Origin: Geothrix sp. 21YS21S-2
GTDB lineage: Bacteria; Acidobacteriota; Holophagae; Holophagales; Holophagaceae
Direction: 5' to 3'
Length of the DNA: 64,000 nt
NCBI RefSeq assembly: GCF_030846775.1
Contig: NZ_CP132910.1
Span: 3,320,001-3,384,000, forward strand
Shown: positions 37,342-57,529 of the stretch, piece after piece
Layout of the letters: each line of letters starts with the position of its first letter
Numbering within the stretch: position 1 is the first letter of the stretch
The notes under the pieces: generated by a model
Databases searched by the model: none
Seen by the model: only the letters and a program-made list of their open reading frames with translations
Told to the model about the DNA's origin: nothing
Position numbers and translations under genes: made by a program

Positions 37342-40300
37342 CTAGAAGGTCACCCGGGCGCCGATGGCGTAGTTCCGGGGCTGGTTGGCCTGGAAGGCCT
37401 GGCCGCGCTTGCCGAAGCCCGAGAAGGGCGACGGGCTGGTGTTGGGGGAGCCGTCGCTGTTGATCTTGATCCCGTCGTAGTTGGCGCCGTAGTCGTAGTT
37501 GTTCAGCAGGTTCTGGACCGCCAGGTAGGGTTCGATGGTCACGGCCTTGGTGATCTTGAACCGGTGGGCCACCTTGGCGCTGATGTCCAGGTTCCAGCGG
37601 CCGTACTCCGTCCCTATGTATTCGATGGGATGGGACTGGTCGAAGCCCCCGGCCGTGCCCAGCTCGTTGTTGTACTGCTGGGTCACGTCATAGGCCTTGC
37701 CGCTGTGCCAGGAACCCAGGAACGAGATCATGGTGCCGAAGTCGAACCTGTGGGAGTAGCTGAAGGAGCCCTCGATGCGGTCGGTGCCGGCGCTGATGCG
37801 CTCGGAGCTGGTCTTCCAGTTGTACTGGGCGCCCTCGCCGTAGAGGCCGCCGGTGTTGCCCGAGGCGTCGAAGGCGCCTCCGGCGCCGCCCTCCGAGGAC
37901 TTGGCCTCCTTGAAGGTGATGGAGAAGATGAAGCTGTTGTTGGCGTCGGCGTAGGAATACTTGGCCTGCAGCTGCTTCATGCTGGCGGTCTGGTTGGAGA
38001 AGAAGATGGTGTCGCCCAGGTCGTTGCCGTTGGCGTCCAGCTCCACGAGGTTGGGTGCGGACCCGTCGGGGCCGGCCAGCTGCGTGGTGAGGTGGCGGCT
38101 CTTGGAGTAGACGAGGGTGACGTCCACGCCGCTGCGGTCGTTGATGCGGTAGGCGAATCCGACATTGAAGGCGTCCGTGGTGGGGTACTGGAAGTCGCTG
38201 GAGAGCAGGCTCTTGCCGCCGGTCTCCGGGGTGGCCGTGGCGAGCCAGCCGTTCACGGTGTTCCGGAAGTAGTCCCGGAGCCCGCCCACGTTGTTCGCGT
38301 AGTTGTAGGGCGTCAGGTCCACGGGCAGGACGATGTTGTGGCCGTTGACCTGCCCGATGACGCTGCCCGCGCTGAAGTTCGTCACGTTGCCCGAACTGAA
38401 GGGCGTGATGTGGTTGTAGGCGAAGGCGGCGGAGTTCCGGGCGCGGATGGGAAGGCCGTTGGACAGGTTGGAGAGGCCCCGGCTGAAGCCGGTGACGTTG
38501 TCGATCACCTGGGCGACGAAACGCCCGGCGCCGAACTTGATCACGAGCTTGTCATCGCCGTAGGGGCGGTAGAGGGCCTGGAGGCGGGGCTCGAAGTATT
38601 TCTTGCCCGTGGGGGCGCTGCCGTCCATGCCGGACAGGATCGGGTTGTACTGGTGGATGTAGGAGTAGATGTCGGAATACCGGTCCTTCAGGTAGTCCAG
38701 CTGGGTGTCCCAGTCCAGGCGGGCGCCGAAATAGACGCTCCAGTTCGGGTTGATGGTCCAGTCGTCCTGCAGGTAGATGCCGTACTGCTTGTAGTCGATG
38801 CCCTTCTGGAGGCCGTTGGCCACGAAGGCGACGGCCACCACGTTCTGGTTGGCCGAGACGGTGCTGTTCCAGCCGGTCTTGTAGTTGATGACCTGGCCCG
38901 TGACCGGGTCCACGCCCTCCACCACCATGCGGTAGAGGCCGGTCTCGCCGAAGAACAGCTGCTGGTCCGCGTAGGTGGTGCGCTGGTAGTCGATGCCGCC
39001 CTTGATCGTGTGGGACCCCGTGATCCAGGTGAGCTCGTTCTTCCATTCCCCGCGCTTGATGCCGGTGTTCTGCAGGGCGTTGGGGTCGATGCCGCCCCAG
39101 CCCCAGTTCTGGGCGTCGGTGCGGTGCCCCGGGAAGCCGGCGGGGATCACGGCGCTGTAGCTGCCGCTGTTCACGTAGTCCAGGACGGCCGCGGGCGAGC
39201 CGTTGCCCGGCGCGCCCTGGGAGTCGGGCGAGATGAAGTTGGCGTAGCTGAAGTAGCTGTAGTGGCTCTCCAGCACCAGGTTGGAATTGATGTTCCAGGT
39301 CCACCGCGCGCCGGCGGCCCAGGTGAGGTCCCGGTCGGTGCCCAGGGCCGAGGGGGCGATGTTGCCGGCGAAGGAGGTGGTGCGGGGGAAGCCCTGGTGG
39401 GCGATCTTGTCCTGGCTGGTGCCGTAGTTGAGGCTGAGGTTCTGGTCCTGGGAGATGTTCCAGTCCAGCTTGGCGTAGACGGTGCGCTTCAGGCTCTCCT
39501 GCCGGGTGCCGCCCAGCTCGGGGTAAAGGCTGAGGGCGTAGGGCTGGAAGGGGAAGGAGGCGTCCGTGGACTGCTGGCGCTCGGCCGAGACCATGTAGAA
39601 GAGCTTGTCCTTGAGGATGGGGCCGGAGACCGTGAAGGCGTAGCTGCCCTTGGTGTTGTCGTTCTTGGTGCCCTCGTCGGTGACCCGGGCCCGCATGGAC
39701 TGGTTGGTGTACTGGGCCGAGAGCAGGCCGGTGAAGTCGTTGGTGCCGGACTTGGTCACCACGTTGAAGAAGCCGGCGGTGGACCGGCCGAATTCGGCCT
39801 TGTACTGGTTGGTCACCACCTGGAACTCGGCGATGGCGTCGATGGGAACCGACAGAACGTAGCCGCCCACGTCGGTGGAGTTGTTGTCGGCGCCGTCGAC
39901 CGCGAAACTGGTGCCGCGGCCCATGCCGTCGCCGGTGGTGATGTAGGAGAAGGCCTTCTTGGTGGGGTCCACCTGCGACCCGGAGACGATCTGCACGCCC
40001 GGGGCCAGCAGGGCGGCCTGGTTGATGTCCCGGCTCACGATGGGCAGGGAGCTGATGACGTCCTGGCCCACCGTGGTGCCCATCTGGGCGGAGGAGGTGT
40101 CGATGGCTTCGGCCTGGGCGGAGGTGGCGAGGATCTCCACCGTGGCTCCGGCCTGGGCCGTCGGCCACTTGAGGAAGTTGGCGAAGGTGTCCTGGCCCAG
40201 GACGACGGTGGCCTGGCTCCTGTAGGACTGGCCGCCCTGGGCGTAGGTGATCTGGTACTCGCCCAGGGGAAGGGCCACGAATGCGAAGAGACCGCTGGCG

Positions 40301-47361: not shown

Positions 47362-48807
47362 CTAGCAGGTTCCACGGCGGGTGTTCATTAGGTCGTTAAG
47401 GGATTCCTCGACCCGGGCCAGCACGCCGTCCCAGGTGTGGCCGTCCAGCTGGCGGAAAAGGCGGAAGGTCGGGTACCAGGGGGAATCCTCCCGGTCCAGG
47501 AGCCAGCGCCAGTCCGGCACCAGAGGCAGGAGAAGCCAGGCGGGCACCCCCATGGCGCCCGCCAGGTGGGCCACGGCGGTATCCACCGTGATCAGGAGGT
47601 CGAGCTTCGCCAGGACGCGGGCCGTGTCGCCGAAGTCCCGCAACAGCGGGGCCAGGTCGCGCAGGTTGTCGAAGGGGAGGCCGCCCTCGTAGCCCACCTG
47701 GAGGCTGTACCAGTCCACGCCGGGGACCCGGCCGAGGGCTTCCAGGCTGGCGAGGGGCAGGGTGCGCAGGGCATCCAGGGAATGGTCCCGGGTTCCGGCC
47801 CACACGAGGCCCACCTTCAGGTTCGGGGAGGGGAGCACCGCGTCGGACGCGGGGGAGGGCTCGGGGGGCGCGAAGACGTAGGGCACTTCGGCGGGAATGG
47901 AGTCCAGGCGCGTGCCCAGCACCCGGGGGACGGAGAGCAGGGGCAGGTGGAGGTCATAGCGCGGCACGGGGTCCGCGAGGGTGAACCAGGTGTCCACCCC
48001 CTGGACCGACGCCAGGACGGAGACGAGCTGGGGCTGGACCAGGGCCGCCACCCGGCCGCCGAGGGCCCGGATCCGGGCCGCGTAGCGGATGAACATCAGC
48101 GTGTCGCCGAAGCCCTGCTCGTAATGAAGGAGCAGGGTCCGCCCCGGGAAGGGGGAGCCGTCCCACAGGGGCGCCGGGGTCTCGACCCGGGGGAAGACCT
48201 CGTTGGGAGGCTCGAAGCGGCTTTCATAGCCGTCCCAGCCCTCCTGGAAGTTGCCGTACGTGAGCTGGAGGAAGGCCATCTCCATGCGGGCCTTGGGCCC
48301 GGTCATCTCCTGGTCGATCACTTCCTTCCACAGGGGCAGGAGTTCGGCCCAGGCCCTGCGCGGGAGCAGCTGGTCGATGAGGTAGTGGCGGATCCCGGGA
48401 TCCCGGGGATCCAGGGCCCTGGCCCTGCGGAAATGGTCGTCCGCCGAGGCGCCCTGACCGGCGAGGCTCAGGCCCAGGGCCAGGTGGCCGGAGGCGTTCC
48501 CGGGTTCCAGCTCGAGGAGGGCGCTGGCGTAGGCCTGGGCTTGGGCGTAGCGCCCAAGGCCCAGGCAGGCGCCGGCGACGTTCTGGAGGGCCGCCGGATG
48601 GCGGGGACAGGCCTCCAGGACCTCCCTGCCGAGGGCGAGGGCCTCCTCGTGCCGGCCCAGGCGGACCAGGAGGCTGGAGAGGTCGACCTTGACGTCGATG
48701 CGCCCGGGATCGGTGCGGAGCAGGAGCTTGTAGGCGAGAACGGCCCTGCCGGACGCCCCCTCCCGGTCCAGGCGGCGCGCTTCCTTGAGGGCGGAATCAG
48801 GATCCAT
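47362..48807 (-). CDS. TPR-glycosyltransferase paralogue 1
   Basis: 481 residues. Residues 1-165 are about four tetratricopeptide repeats (RHEEALALGREVLEACPRHP and similar). Residues 200-470 form a GT9/GT41-like catalytic half with GRTLLLHYEQGFGDTLMFIRYA, VGLVWAGT and the donor-site stretch DLLITVDTAVAHLAGAMG. The combination resembles bacterial TPR-linked glycosyltransferases of the SPINDLY/OGT-like type or family-9-like enzymes; a protein acceptor is possible but unproven. It is the third of three tandem paralogues, lying just before parA. Its ATG is inside the end of the upstream copy (11-nt overlap). Confidence 0.82.
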   Translation of the reverse strand: MDPDSALKEARRLDREGASGRAVLAYKLLLRTDPGRIDVKVDLSSLLVRLGRHEEALALGREVLEACPRHPAALQNVAGACLGLGRYAQAQAYASALLELEPGNASGHLALGLSLAGQGASADDHFRRARALDPRDPGIRHYLIDQLLPRRAWAELLPLWKEVIDQEMTGPKARMEMAFLQLTYGNFQEGWDGYESRFEPPNEVFPRVETPAPLWDGSPFPGRTLLLHYEQGFGDTLMFIRYAARIRALGGRVAALVQPQLVSVLASVQGVDTWFTLADPVPRYDLHLPLLSVPRVLGTRLDSIPAEVPYVFAPPEPSPASDAVLPSPNLKVGLVWAGTRDHSLDALRTLPLASLEALGRVPGVDWYSLQVGYEGGLPFDNLRDLAPLLRDFGDTARVLAKLDLLITVDTAVAHLAGAMGVPAWLLLPLVPDWRWLLDREDSPWYPTFRLFRQLDGHTWDGVLARVEESLNDLMNTRRGTC

Positions 48808-50251
48808 GGCGTTCGCTCGCGAGGCGGTTGAGGGATTCTACGATTCTCGCCACCACATCATCCCACCGGCTACCGTTCTGCTGACGGAACAGGCGCAGGG
48901 TGGGGTACCAGGGGGTGTCCTCCCCTTCGAGAAGCCAGCGCCAATCCGGCAGGAGCGGAAGCATCAACCAGACGGGGAGGCCCATGGCGCCGGCGAGGTG
49001 GGCCACGGCGGTGTCCACGGTGACCAGGAGGTCCAGCTGCTCCAGGACGCGCGCCGTATCCCCGAAGTCCCGCAGCCGTGGCGCCAGGTCGCGCAACCCC
49101 TCGAAGGGGAGGCCGCCCTCGTAGCCGACCTGCAGGCCGTACCAGTCCACGCCGGGGACTCCGGCCAGGGCTTCCAGCCCGGTGAGGGGCAGGGTCCTGA
49201 GGAAGTCGAGGGTGTGGATCCGGTTCCCGGCCCACACCAGGCCGACCTTCAGGTTGGGCGAAGGCTCGACGGCGCCGTCCGCCGGGGAGGCCCCCCGGGG
49301 TGCCCGGAGGTAGGGGATGGGGGCCGGAATGGACGCCAGGCGGGTGCCGAAGACCCGGGGGAGGGACATGAGCGGCAGGTGGAGGTCGAAGGGAGGAACG
49401 GGATCGGCGAGGGTGAACCAGTGGTCCACGCCCGGGCACGATCGGAGCACCGGCAGGAGCTCGGGCTGGACCAGGGCCGCCACCCGCCCGCCCTTGGCCC
49501 GGGCCAGCGAGGCATAGCGGATGCACATGAGGGTGTCGCCGAAACCCTGCTCGTAGTGGAGGAGGAGGGTCCTGCCCTCGAAGGGGGAGCCGTCCCAGAG
49601 GGGCACCGTCGGTTCGAGCCTCGGCGCCGCGCGGTTCGGCGGGGTGAAGCGGCTTTCGTAGCAGGTCCAGCCCTCTTCCAGGTTCCCGTAGGTGAGATGG
49701 AGGATGGCCTTCTCGAAGAGCGCCAAGGGGCCCTCCATGGTCCGTTCGATGACCTCCAGCCACAGGGGCCGGACTTCGGACCAGGCCCTCCGCTGGTACA
49801 GGGACCGCAGAAGGGCGATGCGGATTCCGGGATCCTCCGGATCGAACTCCCGGGCCTTCCGGAACAGGGCCTCGGCCTCGAGGGTCTCCCCGCGCGCCGC
49901 CGCGCAGAGGCCGAGGCCCTGGCAGGCCCATGCGCAGCGGGGATCGAGCTGGAGCAGGCCCCGGCAGTGGCGCTCGGCATCGTCGTAGCGCTCCAGGGCC
50001 AGGAGCGTCCCGGCGAGGTTCTGCAAAGCGCCCCGGTGTCCGGGCCGGGCCTCCAGGGCCTCGGTGCAGAGGTCCAGGGCCTCGGGGTAGCGTCCCATCT
50101 GGAGCAGGAGGCCGGCGAGGTCGACCTTGGCCTCCAGGCATCCCGGATCCGTGCGGAGGACCAGCTTGTAGGCCAGGGCCGCGCGGCCGGGCTGTCCCTC
50201 CCGGTCGAGCCGCCTCGCTTCCTGGAGGCTGGCCTGGGTTTCAGGATCCAT
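48797..50251 (-). CDS. TPR-glycosyltransferase paralogue 2
   Basis: 484 residues, closest in sequence to paralogue 1 (shared opening with EARRLDREG and almost the same catalytic block HYEQGFGDTLM and VTVDTAVAHLAGAMG). TPR part 1-170, catalytic part 205-470. The 11-nt overlap with the gene before it uses the same junction string, ATGGATCCTGA, as the overlap with the gene after it, which points to recent tandem duplication. No signal peptide; cytoplasmic. Confidence 0.82.
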   Translation of the reverse strand: MDPETQASLQEARRLDREGQPGRAALAYKLVLRTDPGCLEAKVDLAGLLLQMGRYPEALDLCTEALEARPGHRGALQNLAGTLLALERYDDAERHCRGLLQLDPRCAWACQGLGLCAAARGETLEAEALFRKAREFDPEDPGIRIALLRSLYQRRAWSEVRPLWLEVIERTMEGPLALFEKAILHLTYGNLEEGWTCYESRFTPPNRAAPRLEPTVPLWDGSPFEGRTLLLHYEQGFGDTLMCIRYASLARAKGGRVAALVQPELLPVLRSCPGVDHWFTLADPVPPFDLHLPLMSLPRVFGTRLASIPAPIPYLRAPRGASPADGAVEPSPNLKVGLVWAGNRIHTLDFLRTLPLTGLEALAGVPGVDWYGLQVGYEGGLPFEGLRDLAPRLRDFGDTARVLEQLDLLVTVDTAVAHLAGAMGLPVWLMLPLLPDWRWLLEGEDTPWYPTLRLFRQQNGSRWDDVVARIVESLNRLASERHGS

Positions 50252-51689
50252 CGGCGAGCTCCCGGGCGAGGTTGGCGAGGACCGGGGCCCAGGCGCCGGG
50301 GGAAGGCTGCCGGTGGATCCGCACGGAGGGGTACCACGGGCAGGCCGAACCCGACATGAGCCACCGCCAGTCGGGGAAGAAGGGCAGGAGCAGGTGCGTC
50401 CGCACGCCCATGGATCCGGCCAGGTGGGCCACGGCGGTGTCCACCGTGACCACGAGGTCCAGCTGGGCCAGGGCCCACGCGGTGTCGGAGAAGTTCCTGA
50501 ACTCGGCGGCCAGGTCGGCCAGGCCCGGCAGGGGCGGCAAGGCGCGGGGGTCCATCTGCAGGCTCAGCCAGCGGGTGCCGGGCACCGCGGCAAGGGGCGC
50601 CAGGAGCGCCGGGTCCAGGCTGCGGCGGGCGTCGTCCTTGTGGGCGGGGCTGCCGGCCCACACGAGCCCGGCCTTGAGCCCGGGGCCCTGGAGCTTCAGG
50701 CGAAGGGCCTCCGGGGGGACGTGGCCCGCCGGGGGGCCCATGGGCGCGGGGGGCGGCAGGTCCCCCGGCGTGCTCCCGAAGATCGCGGGCAGGTCCAGGA
50801 GGGGCGCGTGGAGGTCGAAGGGGGGGAGTTCGTCGTCCTCGGCCAGCACCTGGTCCGCGCCGGGGACGGCCCCGAGCAGGCCCATGAGGCAGGCGTACGT
50901 CTGGAACAGGACGCGGCCGCCCAGGGCCCGGGCCATGGGCAGGTACCGCGCGAACTGCAGGGTGTCGCCCAGGCCCTGCTCCACCCAGACCAGGAGCGTC
51001 CTTCCGGGGAAGGGGCCCCCGTCCCAGGCCGGCTCGTGGAACCCGCGCTGGTTGTCCATGCCCTGGGGCACGTCGAGCCTCGCGTGGAAGTCGGGCCAGG
51101 CCTCCCGGTAGCGGCCCTGGAGGAGGCGCAGGTAGGCGAGGTTCCACCGGGCCTTGGGCATGCCCGGGTCCAGGCGGAGGGACTCCAGGAGCAGGGCCTC
51201 GGCCTCCCCGAACCGGCCCAGGCGCATGAGGGTGAAGCCCAGGTTGAGATTCAGCTCCGGGCTTTCCGGGCGCATGGCCCGGGCGGCGCGGTCGGCCTCA
51301 AGGGCCTCGTCCAGGCGCCCCAGGCGGGCCAGGACGCCAGCCTGGTTGGAGGTGGCCACGAGGTTCCCGGGGTCGAGGGCCAGGGCCTGGCGGAAGTGGC
51401 CCAGGGCGCCCTCCAGGTCCCCCGTGGCGTCCAGGACGCTGCCCAGGCCTGTGTGGGCCGCGGGGTTGGCGGGGACCAGGTCCAGGGATCTGCGGCAGGC
51501 CTCCAGGGCCTCCTCGTCGCGCCCGAGGGCGTGGAGGATGGACCCCATGTTGCACCAGGCGTCGGCCAGGGAGGGATCCCGGCTGATGACCCGCCTGTAG
51601 GTCAGCAGGGCCCCGCCCAGGTTGCCGGAACGCTGTTTGGCCAGGGCCTCCTGGAGCCAGGAGATGATTTCCGGCCTGGGTTCCTCCAT
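50241..51689 (-). CDS. TPR-glycosyltransferase paralogue 3
   Basis: 482 residues from the ATG at 51689; the open frame runs further upstream but there overlaps dapF. It carries five or six TPR units (about 10-205; for example NPAAHTGLGSVLDATGDLEG), more regular than in paralogues 1 and 2. The catalytic half is about 225-475 with LLVWVEQGLGDTLQFARYL and LVVTVDTAVAHLAGSMG. It is the most divergent and first-transcribed copy, probably the ancestral type. dapF ends 17 nt upstream. Confidence 0.82.
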   Translation of the reverse strand: MEEPRPEIISWLQEALAKQRSGNLGGALLTYRRVISRDPSLADAWCNMGSILHALGRDEEALEACRRSLDLVPANPAAHTGLGSVLDATGDLEGALGHFRQALALDPGNLVATSNQAGVLARLGRLDEALEADRAARAMRPESPELNLNLGFTLMRLGRFGEAEALLLESLRLDPGMPKARWNLAYLRLLQGRYREAWPDFHARLDVPQGMDNQRGFHEPAWDGGPFPGRTLLVWVEQGLGDTLQFARYLPMARALGGRVLFQTYACLMGLLGAVPGADQVLAEDDELPPFDLHAPLLDLPAIFGSTPGDLPPPAPMGPPAGHVPPEALRLKLQGPGLKAGLVWAGSPAHKDDARRSLDPALLAPLAAVPGTRWLSLQMDPRALPPLPGLADLAAEFRNFSDTAWALAQLDLVVTVDTAVAHLAGSMGVRTHLLLPFFPDWRWLMSGSACPWYPSVRIHRQPSPGAWAPVLANLARELADGS

Positions 51690-51706
51690 GGGGGCGCCTC
51701 CGGGCT

Positions 51707-52483
51707 TCAGGATAGCAACGAAGGGTCGGCGGCGAAGGCCCCCATCACGGCCACGGGCCCCGAGAGCCAGAGCTCGCGCCAGCCTTCGCCCTCGGGGCTG
51801 GCGGTCACGGTGACCTCCCCGCCCCGGGGCAGGAGGCGCCAGGTGCGGATGCCGGTGCGCCGCGCCAGCCAGGCTCCGGCCACCGCGCACCCCGTGCCGC
51901 AGCAGAGGGTCTCGCCCTCCACCCCGCGCTCCCAGCTGCGGATGCGGGCCGCTCCGGGCCCGAGCACCTCGAGGACGTTGACGTTGGTGCCACCCGGAAG
52001 GGCCGGGTGGCGCCGCAGGGGCACGGCCAGGAGGCCCAGGTCGAGGGTCGCCACGCCGGGACGCTCCAGGACCAGCTGCGGGTTGCCCACCCAGCCGAAG
52101 GCGTGGGGGCCTTCGAGGGGGGCGGGGAAGGGGCGGAACCCGGTGCCGGGGCCCGACGGCATGAGGATCGCCACCGCGTCGCCTTCGCGGCGGAGGCGGA
52201 CCGGCTCGCCGCTGGAGACCACGGCGATCTCGCTGCCCGGGGGGGCGCCGGGAAGGGCCAGGGCCGCGCGGGTGCCGTTGGAGCAGAAGGTGGCGGCGCC
52301 GTCGGCGTCCCAGTGCTCCATGCCCCAGGGCCGGCCCGGGAGGGGCCGGGCCAGGAGGAAGAGGCCGTCCAGCTTCCGGCCGGGGCAGAGGGCGCGGGCC
52401 CACGCGGGGCCGTCGCCCCCGGGCGGGAGCTCGTCCCAGGCGTAGGCGAAGGTGTTGCCCGAAGCGGAGGCGACGGTGAACAT
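51707..52483 (-). CDS. dapF: Diaminopimelate epimerase, divergent
   Basis: 258 residues. Both catalytic cysteines are in place: C67 in FCSNGTRA (canonical CGNG region) and C195 in the CCGTG loop. GTNVNVLEV and SWERGVEGET are conserved around the substrate site. Several usually fixed residues differ: the N-terminal GNDF motif is GNTF, and GNPH is GNPQ. It converts LL-DAP to meso-DAP for lysine and peptidoglycan if it retains this activity. It overlaps ftsB by ATGA. Confidence 0.82.
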   Translation of the reverse strand: MFTVASASGNTFAYAWDELPPGGDGPAWARALCPGRKLDGLFLLARPLPGRPWGMEHWDADGAATFCSNGTRAALALPGAPPGSEIAVVSSGEPVRLRREGDAVAILMPSGPGTGFRPFPAPLEGPHAFGWVGNPQLVLERPGVATLDLGLLAVPLRRHPALPGGTNVNVLEVLGPGAARIRSWERGVEGETLCCGTGCAVAGAWLARRTGIRTWRLLPRGGEVTVTASPEGEGWRELWLSGPVAVMGAFAADPSLLS

Positions 52484-52791
52484 CAGCGCCGGGCGCCCCG
52501 CTCGCGGAAGGTGTAGATGGTCTCGCCGGGGCGGGCGAGGCCCTGCTGGCGGGCCAGGGCCTCGTAGAGCTCGGGGTCCCGGGCGGCGAGCCGCTTGACC
52601 TCCTCGCCCAGTTCGAGGTTGGCCCTGCGCATCTTCAGGAGCTGGCGCTGCTGGTCGAGGAGCTCGGCCTGGCGCTTGTGGAGGCTCCCGATGCCGCTGG
52701 GCGAGAAGAGCAGGATCCCCGTGGACGCCAGCCCCGAGAAGGCCAGGACGCCCCAGAGCGTGCTGGACTTCAGGAGGAGCGACGTGTTCAT
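52483..52791 (-). CDS. ftsB: FtsB/DivIC-family septum formation protein
   Basis: 102 residues: a short N-terminal cytoplasmic part, one membrane helix (about 12-30), then a coiled coil (about 35-70, LHKRQAELLDQQRQLLKM) and a conserved end ARQQGLARPGETIYTF, typical of FtsB/DivIC (PF04977). It bridges divisome components in the periplasm. Its place directly after eno is the common eno-ftsB order. Confidence 0.88.
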   Translation of the reverse strand: MNTSLLLKSSTLWGVLAFSGLASTGILLFSPSGIGSLHKRQAELLDQQRQLLKMRRANLELGEEVKRLAARDPELYEALARQQGLARPGETIYTFRERGARR

Positions 52792-52798
52792 GGGGGTC

Positions 52799-54158
<1,360 letters not shown>

Positions 54159-54159
54159 A

Positions 54160-54744
54160 TTACTTCTTGACGGCCTTCTTGGCGGCCGGCTTCTTGGCGA
54201 CGGCCTTCTTGACGGCCGGCTTCTTGGCGACGGCCTTCTTGGGGGCGGCCTTCTTGGCGACGACCTTCTTGGGGGCGGCCTTCTTGGCGACGACCTTCTT
54301 GGGAGCGGCCTTCTTGGCGACGACCTTCTTGGGGGCGGCCTTCTTGGCGACGACCTTCTTGGGGGCGGCCTTCTTGGCGACGACCTTCTTGGGGGCGGCC
54401 TTCTTGGCGACGACCTTCTTGGGGGCGGCCTTCTTGGCGACGACCTTCTTGGGGGCGGCCTTCTTGGCGACGACCTTCTTGGGGGCGGCCTTCTTCACGG
54501 CGGCCTTCTTGGGGGCGGCCTTCTTCACGGCGGGCTTCTTGGCCGCGGGCTTCTTGGCGGCGGGCTTCTTGGCCGCGGGCTTCTTGGCGGCGGGCTTCTT
54601 GGCCGCGGCCTTCTTCACGGCGGGCTTCTTCGCCGCGGGCTTCTTGGCGGCGGCCTTCTTGGCGGCCGGCTTCTTGGCGGCGACCGGCTCGGCGGCCGTT
54701 TCGACGGGAGCGGTGGTCTCGTCGGGCTGATTGATGTGTTCCAT
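54160..54744 (-). CDS. Histone H1-like protein from a strong internal start
   Basis: 194 residues starting at the in-frame ATG at 54744 (MEHINQPDETTAP). AAGGAG lies 6 nt upstream, in an AAAAAGGAG context far better than the ribosome site of the full-length frame. The product would be a short acidic head followed by about 170 residues of AAKKPAAKK and AAPKKVVAKK units with no aromatic residues, resembling AlgP/Hc1-type DNA-compacting proteins. It is very basic and likely binds DNA non-specifically. This start may make a free histone-like protein in addition to, or instead of, the fusion. Confidence 0.7.
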   Translation of the reverse strand: MEHINQPDETTAPVETAAEPVAAKKPAAKKAAAKKPAAKKPAVKKAAAKKPAAKKPAAKKPAAKKPAAKKPAVKKAAPKKAAVKKAAPKKVVAKKAAPKKVVAKKAAPKKVVAKKAAPKKVVAKKAAPKKVVAKKAAPKKVVAKKAAPKKVVAKKAAPKKVVAKKAAPKKAVAKKPAVKKAVAKKPAAKKAVKK

Positions 54745-55710
54745 TGGGAACTCCTTTTTGCCCTTGCGGGCGGGTTGGGGGGATTGGGTGGTTGACTGTG
54801 GTTTGCCGGTTGGAACCGAACCACCCGCCTTCGGTTTGTCGCTTTCGACGACACCCGCCGCGGCCTTGGCGGGCCTGGTGCCCTTGGCCGCGGGGCCTTG
54901 CTGCGCTTCCTGCTTGCCCTTGGACTTGACGGGCTTCTTGATCACCTCGACACCGGCCAGGATCTGCGCCAGTCGCTTGCCGGGATAGAACTCATCCAGC
55001 AGGGCGTCCCCGACGATGACGCCATGTACTCCCATCCCCTCCAGCTGCTGGATCTGCTGGAGGGTACAGACGCCGGCTTCCAGGATTCGCAGGCATCTGC
55101 TCTGAGGGACCTTCTTCATCAGGGTGAGCGCCTCCTCCCACCGGGGCTCCCATGTGTCGAGGTCACGGCCCAGCACACACACGATATCGGCATCGGCCTC
55201 CAGGGCCCGCTTCAGGTCGGCCTCGCTGGCCACCTCCACGATCACGTCCAGGCTCTTGGCCCGGGCGAGCTTCGAGAGGGCCGCGAGGCGGTCCGGCTCC
55301 AGGAGGGCGGCCATGAGCATCACGGCGTCGGCTCCCAGGATCTTGCTCTCCTCGATCTGGTACTCCTCGAAGATGAAGTCGTGCCGGATGAGGGGCACCT
55401 TCACGGCGGACCGCACCTCGGACAGGTGCTTGTCCTCGCCGAAGAAGAGGAAGCGGTCGGTGGCGACCGAGATGGCCCTGGCGCCGTTCTCCACGAGGCT
55501 CTTGGCGTGGGTGGAGGCCCTGTAGGCTTCCCTCACCTGGCCACGGAGCGGGTTGCCTCCGGCGGTCTCGGCGATGATGGAAATGCCGGGCTGGCTCAAC
55601 TCCTCCTTGAGGGAGTGGTGCCCCTTGTAGGCGTCCTTCACCGCTGCAGGGCCTTTTTGCTTTTTGATCTCGATGTCCAGCGCCTTAAATATCTGGACTT
55701 TTTTCAACAT
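54160..55710 (-). CDS. Pseudo-indole-3-glycerol-phosphate-synthase domain joined to histone-H1-like Lys/Ala repeat tail
   Basis: 516 residues in one frame. Residues 5-260 follow a TrpC (IGPS) barrel: SIIAET, AISVATD, FEEYQI, ILGADAVMLM, VIVEVASE, VIVGDALLDEF. Compared with IGPS catalysis, the Glu positions are kept (E48, E159), but the two lysines are A50 and H110, the Asn is L180 and the Ser is A212, so normal activity is unlikely. Residues 262-322 are a Lys/Pro/Gln linker. Residues 323-516 are a Lys/Ala/Pro/Val tail of KKAAPKKVVA-type units, like bacterial histone H1-like nucleoid proteins. The start at 55710 has only a weak GGGGG ribosome site. No other trp gene is nearby. Whether fusion or two products is expressed is unknown. 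Confidence 0.75.
   Translation of the reverse strand: MLKKVQIFKALDIEIKKQKGPAAVKDAYKGHHSLKEELSQPGISIIAETAGGNPLRGQVREAYRASTHAKSLVENGARAISVATDRFLFFGEDKHLSEVRSAVKVPLIRHDFIFEEYQIEESKILGADAVMLMAALLEPDRLAALSKLARAKSLDVIVEVASEADLKRALEADADIVCVLGRDLDTWEPRWEEALTLMKKVPQSRCLRILEAGVCTLQQIQQLEGMGVHGVIVGDALLDEFYPGKRLAQILAGVEVIKKPVKSKGKQEAQQGPAAKGTRPAKAAAGVVESDKPKAGGSVPTGKPQSTTQSPQPARKGKKEFPMEHINQPDETTAPVETAAEPVAAKKPAAKKAAAKKPAAKKPAVKKAAAKKPAAKKPAAKKPAAKKPAAKKPAVKKAAPKKAAVKKAAPKKVVAKKAAPKKVVAKKAAPKKVVAKKAAPKKVVAKKAAPKKVVAKKAAPKKVVAKKAAPKKVVAKKAAPKKVVAKKAAPKKAVAKKPAVKKAVAKKPAAKKAVKK
54241..54480 (-). repeat. Eight tandem 30-bp repeats encoding AAPKKVVAKK
   Basis: The 240 bp consist of eight back-to-back copies of one 30-bp unit, identical except for a single G-to-A change at 54304. 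Each unit encodes ten residues of the basic tail. Flanking less regular 15- and 30-bp related units extend the array to about 54170-54680. Such identity means recent expansion and a site prone to copy-number change. Confidence 0.95.
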
Positions 55711-55816
55711 TTACAACCCCCGGATCTCACTGCTTCCAGACACGTTTTTGTACCAGGAGCCTCATGAGAATGTTCTTACTACAAACCACTAAACCAGCGT
55801 TCCTAAAGAGGTCAAC

Positions 55817-55831
55817 AGAATTGTGAATTCT
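55817..55831. promoter_or_regulatory. Palindrome in the divergent region before upp
   Basis: AGAATTGTGAATTCT has perfect 6-bp arms around GTG. It lies midway between the pseudo-IGPS gene and upp in an AT-richer divergent promoter region. Candidate operator; no regulator can be named. Confidence 0.35.
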
Positions 55832-55888
55832 TTTCGCGATTGCGCCCGAGATTTTTTCATCGAAGGACCATTTTCGGAATCGCTCCGG

Positions 55889-55908
55889 ATGCCCCAAACT
55901 AGGGGCAT
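55889..55908 (+). other. Hairpin immediately upstream of the upp ribosome site
   Basis: ATGCCCC (55889-55895) pairs with GGGGCAT (55902-55908), 6-nt loop AAACTA. The AGGAG ribosome site begins 3 nt after it. A structure so close to the ribosome site could modulate upp translation. Confidence 0.45.
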
Positions 55909-55922
55909 ACAGGAGCGCGCCC

Positions 55923-56549
55923 ATGGAAGCCACCGTTCTCGACCACCCACTTTGCGACCACAAGATCTCTCTGCTGAGGGACCGGAAGACGCCTGGAATC
56001 CTGTTCCGGCGGGTTCTCGAAGAGCTCGGCCTCATCCTCGCGGTGGAGTGCACGCGCCATCTGCCGACCGAGCCCGTCGCCGTAGAGACGCCGCTGGAGC
56101 GGACCCAGGGGCGCCGCCTCACGTCCCTCGATCCCGTGGTGGTACCCGTCCTCCGCGCCGGACTCGGGCTGCTGCCCCCGTTCCTCCAGCTCCTGCCCAC
56201 GGCGAAGGTCGGGCACCTCGGCCTCTACCGCGACCACGATTCGCTGGTGCCCGTGCCCTACTACCGCAACTTCCCGCCCCTCCTCGACCAGAGGTACGTC
56301 TTCATCCTCGACCCGATGCTCGCCACCGGCGGCAGCGCCTCGGAGGCCGTGAGGCAGCTGAAGGTCGCCGGCGCCCAGCGCATCACCCTCGCCTCGGTGC
56401 TCGCGGCGCCCGAGGGCGTCGCCCGCCTCCAGCAGGACCACCCCGACATCCGCATCTTCGTCGCCGCGCTGGATCGCGAGCTCAACGACAAGGCGTACAT
56501 CCTCCCGGGCCTCGGCGACGCCGGGGACCGCCTCTTCGGGACGCTCTAG
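55923..56549 (+). CDS. upp: Uracil phosphoribosyltransferase
   Basis: 208 residues, standard size. PVLRAGLGLL, the PRPP loop LDPMLATGGSA, and the C-terminal GLGDAGDRLFG are UPRT signatures. It salvages uracil to UMP, feeding the pyrH step encoded at 32 kb. It is alone on the plus strand between the divergent pseudo-IGPS gene and the convergent flagellar cluster. Confidence 0.95.
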   Translation: MEATVLDHPLCDHKISLLRDRKTPGILFRRVLEELGLILAVECTRHLPTEPVAVETPLERTQGRRLTSLDPVVVPVLRAGLGLLPPFLQLLPTAKVGHLGLYRDHDSLVPVPYYRNFPPLLDQRYVFILDPMLATGGSASEAVRQLKVAGAQRITLASVLAAPEGVARLQQDHPDIRIFVAALDRELNDKAYILPGLGDAGDRLFGTL

Positions 56550-56669
56550 GAAGCCCGGGGGGGGGCTTCCGGGCACCGATGCCATGGCAGCCTCCCCGGA
56601 GGGCTCCTGGGGGCCTTCCAGGGTGAGGGCAGGGCCATTCCGGCGCCGGAACCAAGCCCGGCTTCCTTC

Positions 56670-56785
56670 CCTTTTCATCCCCGTCCACCCCCGGCAAGGG
56701 GCCGACGCGACCCGCGGCGCAACGCTCTGGCGCGCCGCGGGAGCCCAGGCCTCAATTGGCCGGGGATGGACGGGGATGGAAAAGG
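56670..56785. repeat. Nested long inverted repeat between upp and the flagellar cluster
   Basis: Outer arms 56670-56695 and 56759-56785 are about 26 bp long and complementary with only a mismatch and a one-base insertion (left arm begins CCTTTTCATCCCCGTCC). Inside them CCCGCGGCGC (56711-56720) and GCGCCGCGGG (56732-56741) form a second, perfect 10-bp stem. A shorter hairpin GGAAGCCC/GGGCTTCC (56549-56570) directly follows upp. It sits at the junction of convergent genes, without open frame or T-tract. Could be a bidirectional terminator or a member of a dispersed palindromic repeat family. Confidence 0.7.
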
Positions 56786-56804
56786 ATTGAAAAAATCCTG
56801 GCAA

Positions 56805-57104
56805 TCAACCCCGGGCAGGCTTGTAGCCGCTCAGGGCCCGGCTGCCCTTGCTGCGGGCCAGGAGTTCGTCCCGGACGGCCCCGCGGATGGCGTTGAGGTG
56901 GTTCACCTGGGTCTCCAGGCGCCGGCCCAGCTCCTGGGCGCGGGCGAGGATGTCGGGCCACCGGGGGCCCTTCTCGGCGCCGGCCAGGGCCTCCTGGAAG
57001 GCGGCGTGCCACGCGGCCACCTTTGCCGGGTCGGGGTCGTCGATGAGGGTCGCCAGGAGCCGTTCCAGGTCGTCCAGCGAAGCCGCTATCCTGCTGTCGC
57101 TCAT
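56805..57104 (-). CDS. Small helical protein downstream of fliS, FliT-like by position
   Basis: 99 residues from the ATG at 57104, which overlaps the fliS stop (ATGA). It is almost all helical, with charged heptads (ILARAQELGRRLETQVNHLNAI), and ends in a basic SRALSGYKPARG. Position directly after fliC-flaG-fliD-fliS is where fliT or other flagellar chaperones occur. Sequence similarity to FliT cannot be shown by eye, so the call rests on size, helicity and synteny. Confidence 0.5.
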   Translation of the reverse strand: MSDSRIAASLDDLERLLATLIDDPDPAKVAAWHAAFQEALAGAEKGPRWPDILARAQELGRRLETQVNHLNAIRGAVRDELLARSKGSRALSGYKPARG

Positions 57105-57529
57105 CCCACCATGCCCTGGGGGGAGAAGGCGGGAGGCTGGGCCGTGCCCTGGCGCTGGTCCAGCTCGGCCCAGGCGGCCTTCATCTCGCCGATCTGGCGC
57201 TCCAGGACCTCGAGGCGCTCGGCCTGGTTCTTCTGGCTGGCGTCGAAGAGCTCCTTCAGCCACCAGTCGTAGATGCGGGTGAGGTTCACGACCAGCTCGC
57301 CGCCGCCCTCGTGGTCGAGGCGGATGGCCAGCTCCTCGACGATGGAGGAGACCCGGTTCACCATGCGCGCCCGGGTGGCGATGTCCCGGCGGCGGATGGC
57401 CGCCACCGCCTGGATGAGGAACTTCTGGGCCCCTTCCAGGAGCATGAACATGATGTGCTCGGGGGTGGCGCCGTTGATCTGCTGCATGAGGTACTGGTTG
57501 GCGACAGCACCGCCGTAGTTCGGGTTCAT
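57101..57529 (-). CDS. fliS: Flagellar export chaperone FliS
   Basis: 142 residues. NQYLMQQINGATPEHIMFMLLEGAQKFL is replaced in function by the FliS pattern: an N-terminal helix, then TPEHIMFMLLEGA, corresponding to the conserved TxxxLixmLyeGa motif. Four helices in total. It binds the flagellin C-terminus to prevent early polymerisation. The C-terminal 25 residues are Gln/Pro-rich and extra. It lies 40 nt after fliD. Confidence 0.88.
   Translation of the reverse strand: MNPNYGGAVANQYLMQQINGATPEHIMFMLLEGAQKFLIQAVAAIRRRDIATRARMVNRVSSIVEELAIRLDHEGGGELVVNLTRIYDWWLKELFDASQKNQAERLEVLERQIGEMKAAWAELDQRQGTAQPPAFSPQGMVG

Follow-up and report, generated by a model that had tools for sequence, protein, structure and literature searches.

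The tail of mycobacterial HupB is H1-like. HupB itself is described as a DNA-binding HU protein with a eukaryotic-like tail (PMC5676037), and in Pseudomonas the phasin PhaF and AlgP carry H1-like Lys/Ala/Pro tails, by which granules are presumed to be anchored to the nucleoid (PMC9239181). Further nucleoproteins of the HC2/H1-like kind are Hc2 of Chlamydia and the H1-like proteins of Burkholderia. A separate group of genes yields more than the full-length protein: archaeal Cas11b and the short form of SpaO are described as C-terminal products of in-frame internal starts (PMC11899642, PMC13059759). The gene described here lies in a stretch of 64,000 nucleotides of Geothrix sp. 21YS21S-2 (Holophagaceae), which as a whole is called the window. 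Both ingredients of this gene are already known, and what appears to be new is their union on a dead metabolic barrel, that of indole-3-glycerol phosphate synthase (IGPS, TrpC), with a predicted nested histone-like product. Among the top-ranked entries listed in searches of open-access papers no description of such a fusion was found.

The likeness to each of these systems is partial. With TrpC the protein has a common fold and sequence descent (Z 27–33; PF00218), whereas it is without the equivalents of K53, K110, N180 and S211, lies outside the trp locus and has a polycationic tail attached. This tail scores above the PF07382 cut-off that marks HC2/H1-like nucleoproteins and below the cut-offs of the NCBIfam H1-like models; it differs from these nucleoproteins in forming the C-terminus of a TIM barrel, a free form being predicted only from the internal start. 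PhaF and AlgP follow a common plan with it, a head domain followed by an H1-like Lys/Ala/Pro tail, but here the head is an IGPS barrel with no phasin by Pfam, and an internal start is present. HupB is likewise a DNA-binding-type protein with an H1-like tail, although its head is HU and not a metabolic barrel. The likeness to Cas11b and SpaO lies in the in-frame internal start; the proteins are unrelated, and the short product predicted here is histone-like. By analogy, the mechanism proposed below would resemble both PhaF/AlgP and the internal-start genes, without the gene necessarily belonging to either group.

The gene is an ORF of 516 aa on the minus strand (54160..55710), with an ATG start and without internal stop, and in Pfam one and the same protein matches IGPS (PF00218; 167.7 bits, cut-off 27, residues 22–240) and HC2 (PF07382; 102.3 bits, cut-off 40), which bears out the preliminary description of a TrpC-type barrel and a Lys/Ala-rich tail in one frame. 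On the same strand it divides into an IGPS-type (β/α)8 barrel (residues 1–253; 54952..55710), a variable linker (residues 254–322; 54745..54951) and an H1-like, HC2-type Lys/Ala/Pro tail (54160..54744), that is also the predicted free protein of 194 aa from the internal Met, with a net charge of +65 and a PF07382 score of 104.4 bits (cut-off 40). Situated 77 nt 3′ of the fusion is eno (52799..54082, minus strand; Enolase_C/Enolase_N, PF00113 and PF03952), and the other neighbours are upp, which encodes uracil phosphoribosyltransferase (PF14681), and at a greater distance a gene for a DapF-type epimerase (PF01678), so that the neighbours eno and upp claimed earlier agree with Pfam; no trp gene adjoins the fusion gene. 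Beyond the dapF-type gene two minus-strand ORFs with tetratricopeptide repeats were seen (48797–50251 and 50241–52403). Rfam gave zero matches at gathering scores in 52000–57500, and no tRNA was found within the 64-kb window. A scan that covers promoters of the sigma-70-like type found none in 53950–55950, and initiation on a shared mRNA is therefore preferred over an internal promoter. An antisense ORF, that overlaps the repeat (54167–54730, plus strand), is taken as a by-product of this repeat.

The residues essential in Sulfolobus IGPS are given as K53, K110, E159 and N180 (PMC7681013), and for the M. tuberculosis enzyme the cited passages state that activity became undetectable after exchange to Ala at E57, K59, K119, E168 or E219, and that K119R caused a loss of more than 2700-fold (PMC10591298). 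The Geothrix barrel has A50 for K53, H110 for K110, L180 for N180 and A212 for S211 (Sulfolobus numbering second), i.e., both lysines, the Asn and the Ser are lost just as the preliminary description had it; its phosphate-site motif GDALL is also kept, while the retained Glu, counted there as two, are three (E48, E159 and E211). The alignment of family barrels, which covers 62 loci from 61 genomes after exclusion of three truncated ones among the 65, shows that the position of K53 is occupied by A (57) or S (5), that of K110 by R (55), H (5) or Q (2), that of N180 by V (54) or L (8) and that of S211 by G (37), A (21) or C (4). Essential Glu159 is kept as E in 60 barrels and is Q in 2; E210 is present in 62/62 and E51 in 61/62, the single exception, K, being probably due to the metagenome-assembled genome (MAG) G066, whose frame is broken inside the barrel. 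All seven positions are intact in the canonical TrpC of three genomes of the same genus (G000, G001, G005).

It was also considered that the catalytic residues might merely be shifted, which turned out not to be the case, as AlphaFold2 places the changed positions at the expected strand ends. The best barrel model, obtained from 14 sequences, has a mean pLDDT of 83.7 and a pTM of 0.82 (residues 1–25 low; mean pLDDT of the other four models 60.8–71.4) and contains the strands of an eight-stranded barrel. It aligns with IGPS chains at Z 27–33 (6bma, Z 32.8 over 227 residues; 1igs, Z 30.5), and by sequence its nearest relatives among solved chains are IGPS enzymes and designed proteins of that type. 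Yet the NCBIfam TrpC equivalog models all stay below cut-off among the matches listed, with the best at 186.5 bits vs 260. Given these scores and the lost residues, the barrel, as far as sequence comparison and modelling indicate, shares the descent and the fold of IGPS, of which it is a paralog, but lacks K53, K110 and N180, three of the essential residues, and the marks that define the enzyme. The dN/dS of about 0.063, pooled over 428 pairs, indicates that strong purifying selection maintains the barrel.

The search for a second, canonical trpC, proposed in the preliminary description, located one in the host genome separate from the fusion (G000:C1:241.6 kb), between trpD-type (PF00591) and trpF-type (PF00697) ORFs and with trpB next to it at 242.9 kb. 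An additional IGPS match away from the fusion is present in 52 of the 62 fusion genomes. Neither another IGPS nor trpB was found in G006, G007 and G008 (0.9–1.2 Mb; 96, 97, and 84% complete) or in G073 (94% complete), an absence that rests on draft genomes 84–97% complete, and the fusion is kept in all four. In six more fusion genomes (G003, G042, G069, G071, G072, G075) just one IGPS match was obtained, and these may simply be incomplete. Since three relatives of ~1 Mb keep the fusion without detected trpB or second IGPS, it probably serves a purpose other than making tryptophan. For comparison, UBA12189 'Acidiparvus' is characterized in the cited passages as streamlined and free-living, with 1.12–1.37 Mb and with amino acid synthesis of Cys, Arg and Pro only (PMC11561045). 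As a side observation, the non-fusion IGPS of G056, G057, G066, G068 and G070 reaches 207–222 bits to PF00218 and the complete ones elsewhere ~145–187 bits; there may be two sorts of canonical TrpC in Holophagaceae, some members of which would have had their trp locus exchanged.

With a profile of 16 barrels and a match threshold of E 1e-30 or better, the fusion barrel was matched in 62 of 77 Holophagaceae genomes from 11/11 genera, a count that includes the MAG G066, and full-length matches within the family score 445–517 bits. Outside the family but in the same class, of which 93 genomes were searched, 3/16 genomes match, at 112–118 bits only; across 396 phylum genomes, in which the best ≤6 candidates per genome were scored, the best match outside Holophagaceae has 163 bits and is taken as an ordinary TrpC. 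The fusion was thus not found outside Holophagaceae among the class and phylum genomes searched. A separate contig scan gave 14 loci with 62–99% identity, labelled Holophagaceae (10/14), Acidobacteria only (3) and Deltaproteobacteria (1). In each of three assemblies (G031, G036, G050) the fusion barrel occurs twice, as full or partial copies, which perhaps reflects mixed strains or contamination.

As to linkage, eno follows the fusion on the same strand in 47/47 complete loci, each with more than 300 nt of downstream sequence, at a distance of 71–96 nt in 40 of them and of 31–344 nt in the remainder. A upp match is located upstream on the opposite strand in 56/65 loci, the ~1-Mb genomes not being among them. 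At six eno loci that belong to other families of this class (L108–L113), the 1.5 kb inspected upstream do not contain the gene. Fifteen family genomes gave no match, but true absence of the fusion is supported in none of them. Ten of these contain eno, and in nine of the ten the contig ends 1–387 nt upstream of the eno match; in six of these nine (G032, G037, G051, G064, G067 and G068) remnants of the HC2 tail are seen at the contig end beside eno. The eno of the tenth, G020, is perhaps foreign, with an identity of only 58%, and in G015, G033, G040, G074 and G076 eno was not found either. The six assemblies with such remnants are interrupted within the Lys/Ala repeat beside eno, and for this reason the gene will often seem absent or truncated in draft genomes.

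The integrity of the fusion was read at 65 loci from 62 genomes, 63 of which reach the barrel end, the other two being truncated where their contigs stop; at 47 loci a stop codon lies within the contig. Within 70 codons past the barrel, an in-frame stop occurs in 0/63 loci, whereas the other two frames have stops in 35/63 and 50/63, i.e., they are open in 28 and 13 of the loci, respectively, vs 63/63 for the linker frame. The linker protein varies in sequence and in length, with the internal Met at residues 307 to 331 (57 loci), and is loosely constrained (dN/dS ~0.5), the frame being unbroken nonetheless. Two separate genes, or an artefact of assembly or frame, were ruled out, as the same frame is found in single-contig genomes and in MAGs. 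The proposal that the two parts might always be separate genes in relatives likewise proved negative, and by its sequence the barrel-tail gene is a true fusion across Holophagaceae.

Between linker and tail lies an element, overlooked in the preliminary description, of the pattern GCCC-N4-GGGC-NNN-AAGGAG-N6-ATG. It is composed (minus strand) of hairpin 1 (GCCC-N4-GGGC; 54760..54771), just 5′ of AAGGAG, the Shine-Dalgarno (SD) sequence of a putative internal start (54751..54756), and of the internal ATG at residue 323 (54742..54744), which sits at the loop of hairpin 2 (GTTCC-CAAT-GGAAC; 54738..54751). AAGGAG-N6-start is in frame in 62/63 loci, with ATG in 61 and GTG in one (G056), and G057 is without the element. 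The use of codons was compared over 33 representatives that share <90% DNA identity, chosen among the 57 loci in which the motif is present and an ATG start can be read; columns counted as conserved when the amino acid had two exceptions or fewer, Met and Trp being left out, which gave 127 columns. Only 5 of them have an invariant codon and all five fall in the element (Ala314 GCC, Lys316 AAG, Gly317 GGC, Lys319 AAG, Glu320 GAG), and the pooled synonymous difference, 0.413 in the barrel and 0.191 in the linker, is 0.002 in the junction element. This pattern indicates that the junction start site is constrained at the DNA level inside the frame. The whole element pattern occurs once in the 5.25-Mb genome, at the junction, and its reversed-pattern control 0 times. 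A second AAGGAG-N6-ATG exists in the window at 37763–37777 (plus strand): AAGGAGCCCTCGATG.

Predicted SD pairing, computed against the anti-SD octamer with spacing not weighed, has a median of −7.2 kcal/mol at the internal start and −6.8 kcal/mol at the first start, the internal one being stronger in 44/59 rows and not the stronger one in 15/59; in this Geothrix gene the first start is predicted to be stronger (−9.3 vs −7.5 kcal/mol at the internal start). Among 167 other in-frame ATGs of the barrels, 4.8% reach the median pairing of the internal start. At positions −60 to −25 of the internal start the fraction of C is 0.54 and that of G 0.10 (barrel: C 0.30, G 0.31), and this C-rich, G-poor stretch of the linker, just 5′ of the start, may keep the upstream region unfolded.

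Hairpin 1 has an intact stem in 59/60 rows, with loops that change; G073 has lost this hairpin and retains AAGGAG-N6-ATG. Hairpin 2, that spans the start codon and would partly hide it, exists across genera in three compatible stem types, distinguished by the residues before and after the start (Phe/Glu, Pro/Ala, and Ser/Asp), each of which pairs its own partner half. Among 20 distinct elements its mean energy is −4.65 kcal/mol as found and −2.49 kcal/mol with the halves swapped (0/20000 permutations); the half-swap test supports hairpin 2 in a way that is only suggestive, as its statistic ignores relatedness. Covariation in a fixed register was mixed, because the register of the stem differs by type. 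In 2 of the 20 elements hairpin 2 is absent (G073) or very weak (G066).

The fusion gene is the sole HC2 locus found in the host genome, both HC2 matches lying inside it. Over the complete loci with the element the part after the internal Met is shortest in G008 (29 aa, +17) and longest in G073 (211 aa, +76), and in the ~1-Mb genomes only 29–33 aa follow the internal start, without a Pfam HC2 match. The tail of G057, where the junction element is absent, has a D/P/T-rich mixed KKADPTPVPDSDPTPAKT-type repeat instead of the Lys/Ala repeat. Among 46 complete tails (median net charge per residue 0.36) that of G057 is the lowest (0.13) and that of G056 the second lowest (0.22), hence the two least basic tails belong to the genome without the element and to the genome with GTG. 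From its composition and its homology to HC2, and by analogy with the H1-like tails of AlgP and PhaF (PMC9239181), we infer that the tail would bind DNA or another polyanion (RNA, polyphosphate).

With moderate confidence we favour a model in which a dead IGPS paralog and an HC2/H1-like polycation are expressed from one mRNA as a barrel-tail fusion and as a free H1-like protein. Since the only invariant codons are those of the internal start element, the gene most likely makes two proteins, as read from its codons, and the pseudoenzyme tethered to a nucleoid protein, as imagined in the preliminary description, is at best one of the two. The gene would be an ancient one of Holophagaceae, perhaps co-transcribed with eno, in which the catalytically dead paralog bears the polycation at its C-terminus, and at the junction a conserved start codon, preceded by an equally conserved site for ribosome binding, would let ribosomes also initiate inside the gene. 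The barrel would be a non-catalytic head, holding a partner or sensing a ligand, the free tail would supply bulk nucleoid binding, and the structure of the start site may set how much fusion is made relative to free tail. That the two least basic tails go with the lost element and with GTG speaks for the model. Against it speak the stronger predicted pairing of the first start in this Geothrix gene, the 15/59 rows in which the internal start is not the stronger one, the partial masking of the start codon by hairpin 2 and the short tails of the ~1-Mb genomes; nor would every carrier of the fusion make two products, because G057 keeps it without the junction element.

Other explanations were weighed against this model. 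The barrel could still be an enzyme of a different reaction, which the tail would carry to DNA or some other polyanion: the three pocket Glu, the glycine of the phosphate loop and many newly invariant residues are kept, and purifying selection is strong, but both catalytic lysines and the Asn are lost in 62/62 barrels and no conserved neighbour other than eno was seen downstream, and we regard this as unlikely. Somewhat less likely still is that the free H1-like protein alone matters, with the barrel read mainly to couple translation or to set dosage. The junction element is indeed the most constrained DNA in the tested part of the gene, and a linker protein with dN/dS ~0.5 fits such a scheme; a barrel with dN/dS of 0.063 and many invariant residues does not, nor do 63/63 linkers without in-frame stop, given that 35 and 50 of the 63 contain stops in the two remaining frames, nor the barrel that G057 retains without an internal start.

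The element might not be a start at all, serving in RNA processing or as another nucleic-acid element, so that the fusion would be the sole product. That AAGGAG is flanked by two hairpins and that the start codon is partly paired could be taken in this sense, yet the spacing AAGGAG-6 nt-ATG recurs in 61/63 loci, GTG takes the place of ATG in one more, and in G073 AAGGAG-N6-ATG persists while hairpin 1 is gone; this reading is judged improbable. That the protein is a working IGPS with a basic tail has next to no probability. The IGPS fold and the PF00218 score speak in its favour, whereas the essential residues are missing, the TrpC equivalog models reach at best 186.5 vs 260 among the matches listed, a canonical trpC exists elsewhere and the fusion is retained where trpB was not found. 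It was ruled out on these grounds, i.e., the lost residues, the missed equivalog cut-offs, the separate trpC and retention without detected trpB.

Returning to the favoured model of one mRNA and two products, a more far-reaching version can be sketched, that is possible though rather doubtful: the dead barrel would bind a phosphorylated metabolite, the H1-like tail would alter nucleoid packing or enolase-linked expression, and the fusion/free-tail ratio, set by the structured internal start on the same mRNA, would tune the response family-wide, down to genomes of ~1 Mb. Automatic annotation would probably label the gene "indole-3-glycerol phosphate synthase," and thereby hide both the lost catalysis and the nested H1-like protein. 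If the two-product model is true, a metabolic enzyme that has lost its catalysis would underlie a nucleoid protein common to the family Holophagaceae, and the gene would in addition enclose a histone-like protein; its retention in ~1-Mb genomes without detected other IGPS or trpB argues for an important role other than in tryptophan synthesis.
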